Positions 1 through 62,995 of a stretch of 64,000 nt of DNA are shown piece by piece (the stretch's first letter is position 1; every line of letters begins with the position of its first letter). The position numbers and the translations under genes were made by a program. Origin of the DNA: Sandaracinus sp. (GTDB lineage Bacteria > Myxococcota_A > Polyangia > Polyangiales > Houyiibacteriaceae). Location: contig PABA01000008.1 of the NCBI GenBank assembly GCA_002699025.1, positions 124,001 through 188,000 of the forward strand, read 5' to 3'. The notes below the pieces were generated by a model. The model worked only from the letters and a program-made list of their open reading frames with translations. It had not been told where the DNA came from and did no database searches.

Positions 1-1188
1 GCGCCCTGGCGGGACCAGCTGCTGCTCTTCGAGAACCTCGACATGGTCTCCACGCGCCGGGACCCGACCGGGGCCGCGAACGCGCACCACAACGGCGCCA
101 CCCACTGCATGACGGCGGCGAACCGGCTGACCGGTGACCGGGCCGGCGACGTGAGCATCGACCAGCTCATCGCCCGGCGCCTGAACGACCCGGCGCCCCT
201 CACGCGCCTGCCCTCGCTCGAGGTCGTCGGCTCCTCCTGGCGGAACGGCGCCGAGAGCTCCGTGCTCTACAGCGGGCCCGGGGAGCAGGTGCCCTTCCTC
301 TACGAGCCGCCGGAGATCTACGACCGCGTCTTCCCGGGGGAGCTCGCCGACGAGGGCGCCGCGCTCCGGCGCGCCCGCCGGGATCTGGTCTTCGGCTTCG
401 TGCGCAGCGAGCACCAGGAGCTCCTCCGCCGCCTCCCGAGCGCCGACCGGCTGAAGGTCGAGCAGCACCTGGCGACGCGCTCGGACCTCGAGGCGCGGCT
501 CGGCCTCGGCAGCGGCCGCGAGGACCTCTGGCCCGGGCGCGACGTGATCGCCGCCTGGGACGACGTGGACTTCGGCTACAACGTGCCGCCGAGCGGCAAG
601 GACGCCATCTGGCAGGCGACGAGCGAGCTGAACATCCGCCTCGCCGTCGCCGCGCTCCACGCCGACGTCACGCGCGTGGCGACCGTCGCCATCCACGACG
701 CGCCCGCCTACACCTTCGGCTACGCGGACGGGGACTTCGAGTCGGACAACCCGCACGACCTCACGCACAAGGTGAACGGGCGCGACACCTGGCAGAGCGC
801 GGACCCGGACGCGCGCGCCGCCATCCGCCGGCAGCACCTGGCGACCATGGAGAAGATGCGCCTCCTGCTCGAGCTGCTCTCGGAGCGCATCGAGCCGGAC
901 GGGTCCACGCTCCTCGACAACACGCTCGTCGTCTACGTCAGCCAGATCGCCGACGGAAGCCACAGCACCGAGCGGCTCCCGTGGTTCACCGTCGGCCACT
1001 GCCAGGGCTTCTTCCGCACCGGGCGCTACCTCCGCTTCGCGCGCGCCGAGGATCCGGAGCGGAGCTGGCGCACGGACGGCCGCCCCCACAACGACCTCTT
1101 CGTGAGCGTGGCCCAGGCCATGGGCGTCGACCTCGAGAGCTTCGGGAACCCGGAGGTCTGCACGGGGCCCATCGCCGAGATGCGCTGA
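1..1188 (+). CDS. DUF1552 family protein, 5' end outside window
   Basis: The reading frame is already open at base 1, with no start nearby, so this is the C-terminal 395 residues of a longer protein. The text resembles the DUF1552 family: a stretch like SIDQLIARRL near residue 55 and a C-terminal motif HNDLFVSVAQAMGV followed by an FGNPEVCTGP-like end. These proteins are usually exported by Tat and paired with DUF1592 proteins in Planctomycetes and Myxobacteria; their function is not established. The intact paralogue at 8463-9875 ends differently, so this is a second divergent copy. Its stop lies 100 bp from the convergent TRAP binding-protein gene, and the ends of both genes are partly duplicated in that gap. 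Confidence 0.85.
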   Translation, partial: APWRDQLLLFENLDMVSTRRDPTGAANAHHNGATHCMTAANRLTGDRAGDVSIDQLIARRLNDPAPLTRLPSLEVVGSSWRNGAESSVLYSGPGEQVPFLYEPPEIYDRVFPGELADEGAALRRARRDLVFGFVRSEHQELLRRLPSADRLKVEQHLATRSDLEARLGLGSGREDLWPGRDVIAAWDDVDFGYNVPPSGKDAIWQATSELNIRLAVAALHADVTRVATVAIHDAPAYTFGYADGDFESDNPHDLTHKVNGRDTWQSADPDARAAIRRQHLATMEKMRLLLELLSERIEPDGSTLLDNTLVVYVSQIADGSHSTERLPWFTVGHCQGFFRTGRYLRFARAEDPERSWRTDGRPHNDLFVSVAQAMGVDLESFGNPEVCTGPIAEMR

Positions 1189-1345
1189 GCCTTCCGGCGT
1201 GCGCCGAGCCTACCGGCGGCGGCGCGGACGACGGCGTCGAGCAGCGGGCGCGGGAAGACGCCGCCCATCGCCGAGATGCGCCGAGCCCTCACTCGGCGGC
1301 GGCGCGAACGACGGCGTCGAAGAGCGGGCGCGGGAAGACGCGGCC
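1167..1345. repeat. Imperfect duplication of two convergent gene ends
   Basis: The 3' end of the DUF1552 gene (a 19-base stretch beginning at 1167) recurs at 1263-1281. The last about 60 bp of the TRAP binding-protein gene (1280-1340) also has a diverged copy at 1202-1260. The offsets differ (96 and 80 bp), so this is a composite of duplicated gene tails, not one clean tandem repeat. Read on the minus strand, the second copy would encode a near-copy of the final VFPRPLFDAVVRAAAE residues. Confidence 0.75.
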
Positions 1346-2269
1346 CATCAGCCGGTCCTTCGTCTCGAGGGCGGCCTCGACCCACTCCTCCTCGTGGGCG
1401 CGCGTGTCGACGGCGGTCATGCGCTGCTGGATCACTTCGAAGGCCCGGTCGTCCTCGCGGCGAACGGCGCGGGCGACCAGCCGGTGGCCGCGGCGTGAGG
1501 TCTCGAGCAGCACGCGGCGGTCCGCCTCGGGCAGCGCGTCGAGCTTCTCCTTCCGCAGGATGGTCGCGCCGATGAGGATGCCGGCGCCCTCCGCCGCGTA
1601 GTAGCGGAGCCGCGTGTGCCACTGGAGCGCGATGACGCCGAGGGCCGAGCCGGGGACCGTGTCGACCATGCCGGTCTGGAGCGCCGGGTAGACCTCGGGG
1701 ATGCCGAGGCGCCGCGGACGCGCGCCGACGACTTCGAGGAAGCTGCTGAACACCACGTCCGAGCGCGGGGCCCAAGGGCGCGCGCGGCGGAGGTCCGCCG
1801 GTCGGGCGATGCGCCGCCGCGAGAAGAGGCGCCCGCGGCCGACGTCGCCCCAGCCGAGGAGCGCGTAGCCGCGCCGGTCGAACTCGGCCTCGAAGCGGCG
1901 CCCCATGCGGCGGCGGACCCGGTCGAGGGTGGCGTAGTCGTCGACCACGCCGGGGAGCCCGAGGACGAGCACGGGGCGGACGATCTCCGAGAGGCCGGTG
2001 GAGGTGAGCGCGGCGCCGTCGAGCTGGCCCGCGTGCATCTTGTCGATGTAGTCGGGCTCCTGCCCCTGCGAGCCTCCCGGGTAGAGGCGAAGCCCGAGCC
2101 GGCCCTCGGTGCGCTGGCGGAGCTCCCGATCCCAGGCGCGGAAGACGCGCATCCAGGGCGAGCCCTCGGGCGCCACGGTGGCGATGCGGAGCTCGGTCGC
2201 CTGCTGGGCCGGCGCGGGGTGGGCGCCGACGGGGAGGAGCGCGAGGGCGATCAGCGCGAGGCGTCGCAT
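1289..2269 (-). CDS. TRAP transporter substrate-binding protein, DctP family
   Basis: This 326-residue protein has an N-terminal signal peptide (MRRLALIALALLPVG, then AHPAPAQQ) and a DctP-type fold. Recognisable parts are the TELRIATVAPEGSPW start of the mature domain, a YPGGSQGQEPDYIDKMHAGQLD stretch and a late IPEVYPALQTGMVDTVPG segment, all typical of periplasmic solute receptors for TRAP uptake of carboxylates. No dctQ or dctM permease gene lies in the window, so it is an orphan receptor here or serves a permease encoded elsewhere. I chose ATG 2269 over a GTG two codons upstream; neither has a clear ribosome site. It follows lgt in the same direction after 121 bp. Confidence 0.82.
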   Translation of the reverse strand: MRRLALIALALLPVGAHPAPAQQATELRIATVAPEGSPWMRVFRAWDRELRQRTEGRLGLRLYPGGSQGQEPDYIDKMHAGQLDGAALTSTGLSEIVRPVLVLGLPGVVDDYATLDRVRRRMGRRFEAEFDRRGYALLGWGDVGRGRLFSRRRIARPADLRRARPWAPRSDVVFSSFLEVVGARPRRLGIPEVYPALQTGMVDTVPGSALGVIALQWHTRLRYYAAEGAGILIGATILRKEKLDALPEADRRVLLETSRRGHRLVARAVRREDDRAFEVIQQRMTAVDTRAHEEEWVEAALETKDRLMGRVFPRPLFDAVVRAAAE

Positions 2270-4420: not shown

Positions 4421-5599
4421 TCAGCCGCCGGCGCAGAAGCCTTCGTAGTCGACGTACTCGGTGATGGTCGGGTTCTCCCCGCAGACGACGCACTCGGGAT
4501 CCTTCGGGAGCTTGAAGGTCCGCACGTTCATCGTGAGCGAGTCGTACTGCATGAGCCGACCGATGAGCGGCTCGCCCTGGCCGAGGAGGATCTTGATGGC
4601 CTCGGTCGCCTGGATGGTGCCGACGACGCCGGGGAGGACGCCGAGCACGCCGGCCTCGGCGCAGGACGGCGCCAGGTGGGGCGGCGGGGGCTCCGGGTAG
4701 AGGCAGCGGTAGCAGGGGCCCTTGCCGGGCCAGAAGGTCGTGACCTGGCCGTCGAAGCGGAAGATGGAGCCGTGGACGACGGGCGTGTCCTTCCAGACGC
4801 TGGCGTCGTTGACGAGATAGCGGGTCGGAAAGTTGTCCAGGCCGTCGACGATGACGTCCCAGCCCTTCCCGTCCGGCCCGTCGAAGATGCGGTCGACGTT
4901 CGAGCTGTCGAGGCGCTCCTGGTAGGGGATCACCGTGACGTCCGGGTTCAGGTCGGCGATGCGGGCGGCGCCGCTCTCGACCTTCGGATCGCCGACGCGG
5001 CCGCGACCGTGGAGCACCTGGCGCTGGAGGTTCGACTCGTCGACGACGTCGCCGTCCACGATGCCGAGCGTGCCCACGCCGGCCGCCGCGAGGTAGAGGG
5101 CGGCGGGGGAGCCGAGGCCGCCGGCGCCGAGGAGGAGGACCTTGCCCTGGAGGAGCGCGGCCTGCCCCTTCTCGCCGACCTCCGGGAGGAGGAGGTGGCG
5201 CGAGTAGCGGTTGAGCTGCGCGTCGGTGAAGGCGAAGGGCTGCTCGGTGGGGAAGCCCTTGTCCTTCCAGTCGTTGAAGCCGGGGTTGGCCGTCTCGACG
5301 TCCGCGTAGCCGAGGTCCTGGAGGACCTTCGCGGCGAAGGCGGAGCGGATCCCGCCGGCGCAGTAGGTGACGATCTTCGCGCCCTTGTCCGGGAGGCGGC
5401 TGGCGGCCTGCATCTCGAGGAAGCCGCGCGGGACGTGGACGGCGCCCGGGATGTGGCCCTGGCGCCACTCGTCCTTCTCGCGGACGTCGACGAGGGTGAG
5501 CGCCTCGCCGGCCTCGATGCGGCGGTGGAGGTCGTCCAGGGAGACCTGGGTGACGGCGGCCTTCACCTCCTGGAGGAGGTCGGAGTAGGTCTTGGCCAT
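4421..5599 (-). CDS. moeB: Rhodanese-MoeB/ThiF adenylyltransferase
   Basis: This 392-residue protein joins a rhodanese domain (about residues 15-110, active Cys in YCAGGIRS) to an E1-like adenylyltransferase (about 130-390) with the ATP loop GAGGLGSP and the zinc Cys pairs CYRC and CVVC. Such fusions adenylate the C-terminal Gly of MoaD- or ThiS-type carriers and donate sulfur for molybdopterin or thiamine-type pathways. The order is reversed relative to the common MoeZ layout, in which rhodanese is C-terminal. ATG 5599 was preferred over an upstream codon because GAGGT lies 4 nt before it. The protein itself ends in Gly-Gly, an unusual tail for an E1. A good promoter lies at 5661-5690. Confidence 0.9.
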   Translation of the reverse strand: MAKTYSDLLQEVKAAVTQVSLDDLHRRIEAGEALTLVDVREKDEWRQGHIPGAVHVPRGFLEMQAASRLPDKGAKIVTYCAGGIRSAFAAKVLQDLGYADVETANPGFNDWKDKGFPTEQPFAFTDAQLNRYSRHLLLPEVGEKGQAALLQGKVLLLGAGGLGSPAALYLAAAGVGTLGIVDGDVVDESNLQRQVLHGRGRVGDPKVESGAARIADLNPDVTVIPYQERLDSSNVDRIFDGPDGKGWDVIVDGLDNFPTRYLVNDASVWKDTPVVHGSIFRFDGQVTTFWPGKGPCYRCLYPEPPPPHLAPSCAEAGVLGVLPGVVGTIQATEAIKILLGQGEPLIGRLMQYDSLTMNVRTFKLPKDPECVVCGENPTITEYVDYEGFCAGG

Positions 5600-52480: not shown

Positions 52481-53242
52481 TCAACAGGCCGTCAGCCCCC
52501 CGTCCACCGTCAGCACGCTCCCCGTCACCCACTGCGCATCCAGCAGGTAGAGCACCGCCTCCGCCACGTCCCGCGGATCCCCCAGCCTCCCCAGCGGGTG
52601 CAGCCCCCGGAGCGCCTCGAGCTGGTCCGCGATCCGCGTCACCGGGTCCTCCGGCATCGCCTCCCCCGGCGCCAGCCGCACCTGCCGGATCATCTGCGTG
52701 TCCACCACCCCCGGCGCCACGGCGTTCACGCGCACCCGCGGCGCGAGCTCCGCCGCGAAGGTCTTCGTCCACGCCACCATCGCCGCCTTCGTCGCCGCGT
52801 ACGCCGCCGTCCCCGGCGCCGGCCGCGCCGCCAGCGTGCTCGTCACGTTCACGATCGCTCCCCGCGACTCCGAGAGCGGCTCCACCGCCGACTGCGCGAG
52901 CATCAGCGGCCCCACGAGGTTCACGTCCAGCTGCTCCCGCAGCGCGTCCTCGCCGATCCCGCCGACCCCCTCGTAGCGCACCACGCCCGCGCACTGCACG
53001 AGCCCGTCCAGGCCCCCGAGCGCGTCCACGGCCTTCCCCACGAGCCGGTCCCGCGCCCGCGCGTGCCGCAGGTCCCCCACGGCCACCCAGACCTTCTTCC
53101 GGTGCGGCTGCGCCACCGCCCGCAGCGCCGCCTCGTCCCGCCCGAAGGCCATCACCCGGTCGCCCCGGCGCGCCAGCGCGTCCACCACCGCCGCGCCGAT
53201 CCCCCGGCTCGCCCCGGTGACCAGATATCGCTTGCCGCTCAT
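52481..53242 (-). CDS. SDR family oxidoreductase
   Basis: A 253-residue classical short-chain dehydrogenase. TGASRGIG binds NADP(H), and NVTSTLAARPAPGTAAYAATKAAM contains the Ser-Tyr-x3-Lys triad (near residues 144-160). The PG-type loop RVNAVAPGVVDTQM is present. The ATG at 53242 overlaps the stop of the FolB-cupin gene (ATGA). Because dihydroneopterin aldolase is its neighbour, a pteridine reductase role like FolM is a reasonable guess, but nothing in the sequence proves the substrate. Confidence 0.88.
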   Translation of the reverse strand: MSGKRYLVTGASRGIGAAVVDALARRGDRVMAFGRDEAALRAVAQPHRKKVWVAVGDLRHARARDRLVGKAVDALGGLDGLVQCAGVVRYEGVGGIGEDALREQLDVNLVGPLMLAQSAVEPLSESRGAIVNVTSTLAARPAPGTAAYAATKAAMVAWTKTFAAELAPRVRVNAVAPGVVDTQMIRQVRLAPGEAMPEDPVTRIADQLEALRGLHPLGRLGDPRDVAEAVLYLLDAQWVTGSVLTVDGGLTAC

Positions 53243-53991
53243 CCCGCCCCCACGATCGGCCCCCAGGGCGGCTCCGGCGCCACGTCCGCCGGCTCCCCCT
53301 CGACCTCGATCTCGTCCTCGGGGATGAAGCGCGGCAGGTCGACGCAGAGGATGCTCTGCCAGCGCTCGCTCGGGTTGTCGTAGCGATGCGCTGCCCCCCG
53401 CGGCCAGCGATGCACGGTCCCCGGCGGCACCTCCGACCCCTGACAGAGCAGCCCCCGCGTGAGCACCATCTCGCTCTCGCGCATCTGCCGGTGCACGTGC
53501 AGCGGGATGCCCTCCCCCGGCGCGATGTTGAGGCGGTAGATCCCCGCGTCCCGCGTCTCGTAGAGCACGTCCACGGAGCCCCAGGGCTTGTCCTCGTGCC
53601 CGATCTCGCACCAGCTCGCCGCCCGCCGGATCGTCAGGCTCGGCGTCGCGAAGCCCTTCAGCGCGCCCGGCTTGGTCAGCGAGACGGCCACCTCGTCCAC
53701 CTGCGCGCCGCGCTCTCCCGGCGCCGGCGGCGCGAGCACGAGCGTGGCGATGGCGTGGGCGGCGGTCTCGAGCAGCCGGAAGCGCCCGCTCCGAAGCAGG
53801 AAGACCACCTGCGAGGCCGTCGCGGCGTAGTCGGCGGTCTCGAAGACGCTCTCCTTGCGGGCGGCGCGCTCCGTGTCGAGCACGAGCTCGAGGTCGACCT
53901 TCAGCGGCTGGGAGGCGTTCCGCTCGTGGGGGTAGAGGCCGACCACGCAGTCGACGTGCAGGCTCTCGATGCGGACGATGTCGCGGTTCAT
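53239..53991 (-). CDS. FolB dihydroneopterin aldolase fused to a cupin
   Basis: Residues 1-125 form a FolB domain: DCVVGLYPHERNASQPLKVDLEL has the position of the FolB Glu, and VSLTKPGALKGF contains the catalytic Lys. This enzyme cleaves dihydroneopterin in folate biosynthesis. The C-terminal 120 residues are a cupin (IPLHVHRQMRESEM with a His/Glu cluster, WPRGAAHRYDN). Such a fusion is not the usual FolB layout. The His pattern of the cupin could hold a metal. It overlaps the SDR gene and follows the DAG lipoprotein at 54098. Confidence 0.85.
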   Translation of the reverse strand: MNRDIVRIESLHVDCVVGLYPHERNASQPLKVDLELVLDTERAARKESVFETADYAATASQVVFLLRSGRFRLLETAAHAIATLVLAPPAPGERGAQVDEVAVSLTKPGALKGFATPSLTIRRAASWCEIGHEDKPWGSVDVLYETRDAGIYRLNIAPGEGIPLHVHRQMRESEMVLTRGLLCQGSEVPPGTVHRWPRGAAHRYDNPSERWQSILCVDLPRFIPEDEIEVEGEPADVAPEPPWGPIVGAG

Positions 53992-55236: not shown

Positions 55237-56589
55237 ATGACCCGAGAAAACACCCTCTCGCATCCCTCCGCCGACGTCCAGCCTCCGCGCGGCTCGGCGG
55301 CGGCGCGAGACGACGCCCACGCCCCCGATCCGGGCGCCGCCTTCCGCAAGGTGCCCCGCACGGGCGTCATCTACGTCAGCGTCGAGGCACAGAAGCGCGG
55401 CTTCGGCTTCGGCGCCGAGGGCTGGTGCAACCTCGGGCAGGGGCAGCCGGACACGGGCGACCTCCCCGGCGCGCCGGCGCGCGTCCGCCACATCGACATC
55501 GAGCAGGCCGACCTGGACTACGCCCCCGTGCCCGGCCTCTGGGAGCTCCGCGAGGCCGTCGCCGGCCTCTACAACCGGCTCTTCCGCCGCGGCATGCCGA
55601 GCCAGTACAGCGCCGAGAACGTCGCCATCTGCGGCGGCGGGCGCGTCGCCATCATGCGCACCTGCGCGGCCGTGGCCCCCGTCCACCTCGGCCACTTCCT
55701 CCCGGACTACACGGCCTACGAGGAGCTCCTCGACGTCTTCCGGCGCTTCCAGCCCATCCCCATCCTCCTCGACCCGGACAAGGGCTACGCCTTCAGCACC
55801 GAGGACCTCCGCCGCGAGATCAACGGCCGCGGGCTCGGCGCCATCCTCATGAGCAACCCCTGCAACCCCACCGGCAAGGCCATCGCCGGCGACCAGCTCG
55901 CGGCCTTCGTCGGCGCCGCCCGGGGGCTCGGCTGCGCCCTGCTCCTCGACGAGTTCTACTCGCACTACGTCTGGAGCCAGGACCCCGAGGACGAGGACGC
56001 CGACCCGCCCATCGTCAGCGCCGCCCAGTACGTCGAGGACGTGAACCGCGACCCGGTCGTCGTCTTCGACGGGCTCACGAAGAACTGGCGCTACCCGGGC
56101 TTCCGGGTCTCCTGGATCGTCGGCCCCAAGCACGTCATCGAGTCCGCCGCGAGCGCCGGCTCCTTCCTCGACGGGGGCGGCTCGGCGCCCATGCAGCGCG
56201 CCGCCATCCCGCTCCTCGACACGGACCACACGCTGGCCGAGACGCGCGCCATCCGCGCCGCCTTCCAGCCCAAGCGCGACCTCCTCGTACGGAAGCTCCG
56301 CGAGATCGGCGTCCGCTTCGACCTCGAGCCCGAGGGCACCTTCTACGCCTGGGGCAACCTGAAGGACCTCCCGCCCTCGCTCCGCCACGGCGAGGACTTC
56401 TTCCAGGCGGCCCTGGACCGGAAGGTCATCTGCGTGCCCGGGCACTTCTTCGACGTGAACCCGGGCAAGCGCCGCATGGGCCGCCCCTCGCGCTTCCGCC
56501 ACCACGTGCGTTTCAGCTTCGGCCCCTCCATCGAGGTGCTGGACGAGGCCACGGACCGCCTCGCCGAGATGGTCCGCTCCGCGCGCTGA
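55237..56589 (+). CDS. Class I/II PLP-dependent aminotransferase
   Basis: A 450-residue fold type I aminotransferase. WCNLGQGQPDTGDLPG is the N-terminal substrate loop, GGGRVAIMRTCAA and MSNPCNPTGK are core motifs, DEFYSHYVW contains the PLP-pyridine Asp, and the Schiff-base Lys is in DGLTKNWRYPGFRVSW. The first 40 residues form a disordered tail. The substrate could be an aromatic or aspartate-type amino acid. There is a weak stem (GTCGGGA/TTCCGAC, 56590-56609) just after the stop. Confidence 0.88.
   Translation: MTRENTLSHPSADVQPPRGSAAARDDAHAPDPGAAFRKVPRTGVIYVSVEAQKRGFGFGAEGWCNLGQGQPDTGDLPGAPARVRHIDIEQADLDYAPVPGLWELREAVAGLYNRLFRRGMPSQYSAENVAICGGGRVAIMRTCAAVAPVHLGHFLPDYTAYEELLDVFRRFQPIPILLDPDKGYAFSTEDLRREINGRGLGAILMSNPCNPTGKAIAGDQLAAFVGAARGLGCALLLDEFYSHYVWSQDPEDEDADPPIVSAAQYVEDVNRDPVVVFDGLTKNWRYPGFRVSWIVGPKHVIESAASAGSFLDGGGSAPMQRAAIPLLDTDHTLAETRAIRAAFQPKRDLLVRKLREIGVRFDLEPEGTFYAWGNLKDLPPSLRHGEDFFQAALDRKVICVPGHFFDVNPGKRRMGRPSRFRHHVRFSFGPSIEVLDEATDRLAEMVRSAR

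Positions 56590-56785: not shown

Positions 56786-62991
<6,206 letters not shown>

Positions 62992-62995
<4 letters not shown>

Follow-up and report, generated by a model that had tools for sequence, protein, structure and literature searches.

A dihydroneopterin aldolase (FolB) domain that shares one polypeptide with a cupin, and whose gene runs directly into that of an SDR, raises the question of whether the three serve one pathway or two. The arrangement lies in a 64,000-nucleotide stretch of DNA from a Sandaracinus sp., referred to here as the window; the genome from which it comes (G000) is an assembly of 238 contigs.

The fusion gene and its distribution

The fusion gene (P0001), identified by ORF reading, Pfam and AlphaFold, occupies positions 53239-53991 of the reverse strand, starts with ATG and encodes 250 amino acids. 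Its FolB half covers residues 4-124 approximately (53620-53982), as delimited by Pfam, by alignment A3 and by a structure match to dihydroneopterin aldolase (DHNA), and its cupin half residues 131-233 approximately (53293-53601), on the evidence of alignment A3, the AlphaFold model and a structure match. The model of the whole protein has a mean pLDDT of 92.6 and a pTM of 0.91. The stop codon of the fusion is overlapped by the start codon of the next gene as ATGA at 53239-53242, read directly from the sequence, and that gene (52481-53242, same strand) encodes a classical SDR (type 1) of 253 amino acids, recognised from its ORF, from Pfam and from the motifs TGASRGIG, S135-Y148-K152 and R35. 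The original prediction was of a FolB joined to a histidine-containing cupin and coupled through ATGA to an SDR, and both elements are borne out, the first by the Pfam FolB match, the AlphaFold model and the structural matches, and the second by the overlap itself. On the forward strand, a divergent PLP class I aminotransferase (55237-56589) was assigned from Pfam, NCBIfam and synteny. Cys-rich repeats are numerous in a very large ORF of 2069 amino acids further along that strand (56786-62995), which has a hydrophobic segment at its C-terminus and whose homologue in genome G007 adjoins the aminotransferase.

The FolB-cupin fusion is a real, conserved feature. Of 33 FolB places, 30 were fetched, counting that of the window, and 26 of these share the C-terminal domain, which argues against a chance event; the domain is absent in L002, L021 and L023, and L020 is cut by the end of its contig. 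A cupin-only query of the genome_contigs collection returned 45 related loci, 39 of them with an SDR match in the locus. The scan was built on patterns taken from close relatives, gave no match under 36% identity and has no bearing on absence in other phyla. More distant fusions, beyond the reach of that scan, were met by later searches. Within the class, the fusion profile matched 204 of 289 genomes, a count that includes FolB proteins without the cupin. Outside the class, ten loci gave a strong cupin match. Read by eye, seven of them have an intact FolB half, which in L252 is cut and in L249 and L255 decayed; an SDR match lies directly downstream in all ten, three of these matches being weak or cut (19, 46 and 47 bits). 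In the two loci with a decayed FolB half (L249 in G519, L255 in G308) the cupin ligands are present and the downstream SDR match is retained. The cupin had no match in plasmid records at E 1e-3. No description of a FolB-cupin fusion was found in the literature searched, including the accessible portion of PMC9040561.

The FolB half and the folate pathway

The FolB half matches the Pfam FolB family (PF02152) at E 2.7e-21 over residues 5-119, with 76.6 bits against a cut-off of 31.8, and at 59.2 bits exceeds the cut-off of TIGR00526 (45.05). Its score against the NCBI folB equivalog, TIGR00525, is below the cut-off (55.7 bits vs 72.15), and the protein is therefore placed in the FolB family as a likely, but not certain, aldolase. 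Residues E23, Y55, E75 and K107 are invariant in 34/34 aligned fusions (alignment A3), and we take these Glu, Tyr, Glu and Lys residues to have the catalytic-type roles of FolB. Among solved DHNA structures the model resembles the enzymes of Staphylococcus aureus (1dhn, Z 13.0) and Escherichia coli (2o90, Z 12.7). The window protein thus shares with known FolB (PF02152) the fold, the four catalytic-type residues and the status of sole copy beside other folate genes, but differs in carrying a cupin on the same chain and in its sub-cut-off equivalog score. Its FolB half also shares a superfamily with the FolX and bifunctional FolB epimerases, against whose models it scores 29.8 bits (PRK11245, cut-off 152) and 45.9 bits (PRK11593, cut-off 184).

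The whole of G000 contains a single FolB match, and in a search of G000 with 36 relatives, 37 genomes in all, 33 gave exactly one. Matches to HPPK, FolE and DHFR turned up in 34, 33 and 34 of these genomes respectively, G000 among them each time. A normal folB elsewhere had been named in the original prediction as the observation that would speak against it; a second FolB was looked for in G000 by a search of the 95.9%-complete assembly, and none was found. Given the lack of a second FolB match, the presence of FolE, HPPK and DHFR and the retention of the four catalytic-type residues, the FolB half is most likely, judged by sequence, the dihydroneopterin aldolase of the folate pathway.

The cupin half

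Assignment of the second half draws mainly on structure. Cupin_2 matches residues 153-210 at E 0.0023, under the cut-off, with 18.1 bits for the whole protein and 20.4 for the cupin half alone (cut-off 27.2). The AlphaFold model matches cupin barrels over residues 131-232 approximately, and pLDDT reaches 95-98 per block in this half. The His-x-His, Glu, His ligand pattern of cupin motifs 1 and 2 is present, although the spacing within motif 1 is not exactly what we take to be the cupin consensus. In alignment A3, H165, H167, E174 and H202 are invariant in 34/34 aligned fusions and E172 is nearly so; N206 is likewise invariant. H165, H167, E174 (E172) and H202 are thus putative metal ligands.

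The best fold match is the phosphomannose isomerase of Thermococcus (7zvy; Z 14.7, rmsd 1.6 over 99 residues), with the Z values of many other cupins close behind, and the score against PF01050 is 18.1 bits (cut-off 23.6). The barrel fold is shared with phosphomannose isomerase cupins (7zvy, 7zvm), DddK, KdgF, the C-terminal domain of CapF and BacB, and the His-x-His, Glu, His pattern is common to the phosphomannose isomerase cupins, the small cupins and the window cupin. In sequence, no significant relation to any solved chain was detected, the best match of the cupin profile among solved structures having an E of 0.16. A reaction type for the cupin can be suggested from the fold, to which many other cupins also come close.

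Separate loss of the two halves

The relation between the halves was followed in 82 loci of the class, a non-random sample made up of 22 loci from relatives and 60 picked for full-length or partial profile matches. The state of the cupin was scored by automatic alignment, which places the letters of degenerate copies only approximately; for 20 loci the whole sequence was read. The four FolB residues are kept in 78 of the 82 loci. A live cupin is present in 59, and in the remaining 23 its ligands, or the domain as a whole, are missing; the FolB half is intact in all 23 of these dead-cupin loci. The opposite state, an intact cupin with a decayed FolB half, was found in 4/82: the FolB half is unrecognisable in L126-L128, from genus g27, and mutated in L167 (G151). 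By profile comparison the g27 proteins are related to the fusions with a probability of 99.9%, the match lying mainly in the cupin and reaching weakly into FolB.

In lineages with a live cupin the two halves are equally conserved, with a mean identity of 48% for the cupin and 48% for FolB. At matched FolB divergence, live pairs share on average 41% identity in the cupin and dead pairs 19%. Many genomes keep a C-terminal extension of about the same length that lacks the ligands. One such case is perhaps L071 (G033; 4615-5298, forward strand), in which FolB is followed by a C-terminal stretch resembling a ligand-less cupin and the divergent aminotransferase still adjoins. The existence of FolB-bearing lineages with neither cupin nor SDR suggests that a second reaction would be dispensable for folate synthesis, and the retention of cupin and SDR in other lineages whose FolB half has decayed suggests that it would also be independent of FolB activity in the same protein. 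The data thus incline us, by a modest degree, to the view that cupin and SDR form one functional unit which is attached to FolB and dispensable for folate.

Genomes without FolB and their PTPS genes

According to the available part of PMC5041015, ExxHGH marks PTPS-III, by which the FolB step is bypassed. Four of the 37 genomes gave no FolB match (G004, G026, G035 and G036). G035 and G036 each carry two PTPS genes, the second with ExxHGH. In G004 a cupin fragment lies at a contig end, so that its FolB has probably fallen into an assembly gap. G026, which is of the same order and 92% complete, has matches for HPPK, FolE and DHFR and none for FolB; its sole PTPS is of the Cys type, and an assembly gap may be the cause of the FolB absence. 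FolB was likewise not matched in any of the three g27 genomes. Each of them contains two PTPS genes, of which the second is truncated in G271 and bears ExxHGH in G099 and G165. In G151 there are two other FolB genes besides L167.

ExxHGH alone is no proof of FolB replacement, since the motif is also found in genomes that keep FolB: in PTPS of the FolB-intact genomes G033, G145 and G150, as CExxHGH in G153, and in G151 with its other FolBs. Among genomes with no fusion-profile match, it was not read in G086, G092 and G140, and G119 has it. G519 has a Cys-type PTPS. The PTPS paralogues with ExxHGH that accompany FolB in G033, G145, G150 and G151 (L205, L207, L213 and L208) look like subfamilies other than the EGERLHGHNW type of FolB-less genomes. 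In G228 (C1:5731815-5732572), a PTPS with a QueD-type Cys motif directly adjoins a short, cupin-less FolB on the same strand.

The downstream SDR and the pteridine-reductase question

The window SDR matches Pfam adh_short at E 1.3e-45, and G10, G14, G16, S135, Y148 and K152 are invariant in 29/29 aligned sequences, as expected of a classical SDR with TGx3GxG and the Ser-Tyr-Lys residues. The Arg-containing form TGx3RxG is a published mark of PTR1, FolM and PruA, and the Gly form has been noted in some PruA/FolM-like groups, according to the accessible parts of PMC1971073 (for the Arg form) and PMC13259868 (for both). The window SDR has TGASRGIG, and the Arg occurs in 0/29 of the aligned sequences, the window's included. 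Like FolM, PTR1 and PruA it is an SDR beside a FolB gene, but it differs from them in having Gly for Arg in TGx3(R/G)xG and a catalytic-type Ser. Among NCBIfam models the PRK09135 pteridine reductase ranks second for it, at 162.4 bits against a cut-off of 288, and the dihydromonapterin reductase PRK06483 is not among the best 25 of 227 families listed. The two best-scoring solved relatives are named glucose 1-dehydrogenase, and much of the list consists of 3-oxoacyl-ACP reductases. A profile search of the PDB with the SDR alignment returned nothing at E 1e-55, a threshold too strict to be informative. A role for the SDR as pteridine reductase or alternative DHFR was rejected, given the motif TGASRGIG and the presence of FolA in G000, and the suggestion in the original prediction that it could reduce pterins becomes less likely in view of the same motif and the sub-cut-off PRK09135 score.

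SDRs with the Arg motif do occur nearby in other genomes. They lie upstream of the fusion in 12 of the 82 loci (L126-L128, L139, L144, L153, L156-L159, L161 and L167), with Asp in place of the catalytic Ser wherever that stretch was read, and for three of them compared with NCBIfam, the top-ranking model was pteridine reductase, at 221-236 bits against a cut-off of 288. Four of the ten loci outside the class (L246, L250, L253 and L254) combine an upstream Arg-motif SDR with a downstream SDR match, the latter weak in L253 and L254. A pteridine-reductase-type gene thus belongs to the FolB neighbourhood in places and is distinct from the window SDR. In the same order, L023 (G029; 649-1836, reverse strand) contains a second kind of FolB fusion, a 395-residue ORF that joins the FolB domain to an SDR whose pteridine-reductase motif reads TGSAKRLG.

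These observations bear on the reading proposed originally, that FolB, cupin and SDR together make or modify a pterin other than folate, with a pteridine-reductase role for the SDR and the side chain as the target of the cupin. The PRK09135 rank speaks for it, as do the Arg-motif SDRs beside the fusion in some relatives, above all in g27, where such an SDR stays with cupin and SDR despite the decayed FolB half. The window SDR and its orthologues are, however, of the TGx3GxG type, with no Arg in 29 sequences, as opposed to the TGx3RxG of PTR and FolM (as given in the same two sources). FolB is the sole copy found, moreover, and the other folate genes are present in G000, which also has no phenylalanine hydroxylase. 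What endures of the original idea is the sense of something beyond folate; FolB itself is likely the folate aldolase, being the sole copy alongside FolE, HPPK and DHFR, and the reading as a whole appears unlikely, while still deserving attention. Phenylalanine hydroxylase is the classical user of a non-folate tetrahydropterin. Its gene (PF00351) was present in 2 of the 37 genomes and was not found in G000, and supply of tetrahydropterin to this enzyme was rejected on that count.

Association of the SDR with the live cupin

Type 1 SDR genes on the same strand and within 1.5 kb were counted after four contig-edge loci had been left out of the 82. Such a gene is present at 41/56 live-cupin loci and at 0/22 dead-cupin loci (Fisher p 6.6e-10, kinship being ignored). 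On the FolB tree there are eight changes of cupin state, gains and losses taken together, of which two are forced by well-supported branches. When all branches of the best tree are used there are eight independent live/dead pairs, in which the SDR follows the cupin in 5-6, is tied in 2-3 and runs counter to it in none; the well-supported branches give two independent pairs, too few for co-loss to be significant. G174 and G132 belong to a single genus and share their upstream neighbour; the first combines a live cupin with the SDR, and the second lacks both.

This distribution bears on a rival explanation, in which the cupin serves FolB only as a tail with a structural or regulatory role and the SDR is an unrelated operon neighbour. 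Some cupins are non-catalytic, ligand-less extensions of similar length persist, and a nearby type 1 SDR is lacking at 15 of the 56 loci with a live cupin, six of these 15 having an Arg-motif SDR instead. A tail would, however, hardly account for ligands that are invariant in all 34 aligned fusions and kept where the FolB half has decayed, nor an unrelated neighbour for the absence of the type 1 SDR from every dead-cupin locus and for the contrast between G174 and G132. The explanation is accordingly doubtful. The 15 loci may mean that the pairing of cupin and SDR is not obligatory, or that the SDR is encoded elsewhere in the genome.

Neighbour clustering, carried out for 38 of the 82 loci, placed an SDR cluster first (19 loci, with both SDR types merged) and the aminotransferase next (10 loci). 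The aminotransferase is a syntenic neighbour of FolB in several families of the order; it is divergent from or near FolB in families f1, f2, f3, f8, f9 and f11, and was not found in any scored locus of families f12 and f18. Its nearest NCBIfam model is the guanitoxin cyclodehydratase GntC, at a score far below the cut-off (128.5 vs 415). As a candidate part of the module it was rejected, since at L070, L071 and L185 it is found next to a FolB that has no live cupin, and it probably lies outside the cupin-SDR module.

A proposed function for the fusion and its SDR

The explanation that we favour, by a narrow preference and with the FolB, cupin and SDR data taken together, is that one polypeptide carries two separable jobs, those of a folate aldolase and of an accessory cupin enzyme paired with the SDR. 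In the scheme that we infer, for catalysis by each half and metal binding as well as for cofactor and reaction type, the FolB half would convert 7,8-dihydroneopterin to 6-hydroxymethyl-7,8-dihydropterin and glycolaldehyde for folate. The cupin half, with its phosphomannose-isomerase-like fold, would be metal-dependent and work with the co-translated classical SDR. Modelled on that fold, it would most likely isomerise or epimerise a small alpha-hydroxy-carbonyl compound, whose carbonyl the SDR would then reduce or oxidise with NADP(H). Cupin and SDR would stand outside folate synthesis, as an accessory function carried along with FolB; candidate substrates are the side chain of a pterin or the C2 hydroxyaldehyde that the aldolase sets free.

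Isomerisation or epimerisation coupled to redox chemistry is suggested by the occurrence of a metal-type cupin of such a fold beside an SDR, for which RmlC/RmlD and CapF provide parallels. In these systems a cupin isomerase or epimerase is paired with an SDR, and CapF is in addition a structure match of the window cupin; they act on nucleotide sugars, whereas the window pair is joined to an enzyme of folate synthesis. What points to the side chain of a pterin as substrate is the company of FolB and, in some lineages, of the pteridine-reductase-type SDR that stays where FolB has decayed (g27).

Disposal or use by the cupin-SDR pair of glycolaldehyde, or of a phosphorylated C2 unit, from side-chain cleavage would be a narrower form of this chemistry. 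Phosphomannose isomerase as the best fold match of the cupin would agree with it, as would the glucose 1-dehydrogenase names of the two nearest solved SDRs, although many others are 3-oxoacyl-ACP reductases; FolB and, by extension, PTPS-III would set free a C2 hydroxyaldehyde, which fits the keeping of the pair where FolB is gone. The flux through folate synthesis is small, however, and dead-cupin lineages manage without the pair, so that this role seems improbable. That the cupin is the missing phosphatase, converting dihydroneopterin monophosphate to dihydroneopterin ahead of FolB, is very improbable, since the cupin stays in FolB-less genomes with a PTPS-III-type gene, is missing in 23 loci with an intact FolB, and would leave the SDR unexplained.

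The idea of two separable jobs can be taken further, on a speculative footing, to an undescribed branch of pterin metabolism. A metal cupin would rearrange the sugar-like side chain of a dihydropterin, or else the hydroxyaldehyde that cleavage yields, and the SDR would reduce it; fusion to FolB would bring the two to the pathway, a neighbouring PTR-type reductase would join in some lineages, and the unit would be kept when PTPS-III replaces FolB. Of the two parts of the locus, the fusion is a variant of a known enzyme and the separable cupin-SDR unit is the part that deserves a test. The separate loss of the halves across lineages supplies natural mutants for function finding, and cupin and SDR are a concrete gene pair in which a new pterin or hydroxyaldehyde reaction can be sought in Myxococcota. 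If the proposal is true, a gene normally annotated as folB would hide a second activity that is able to outlive the folate activity.
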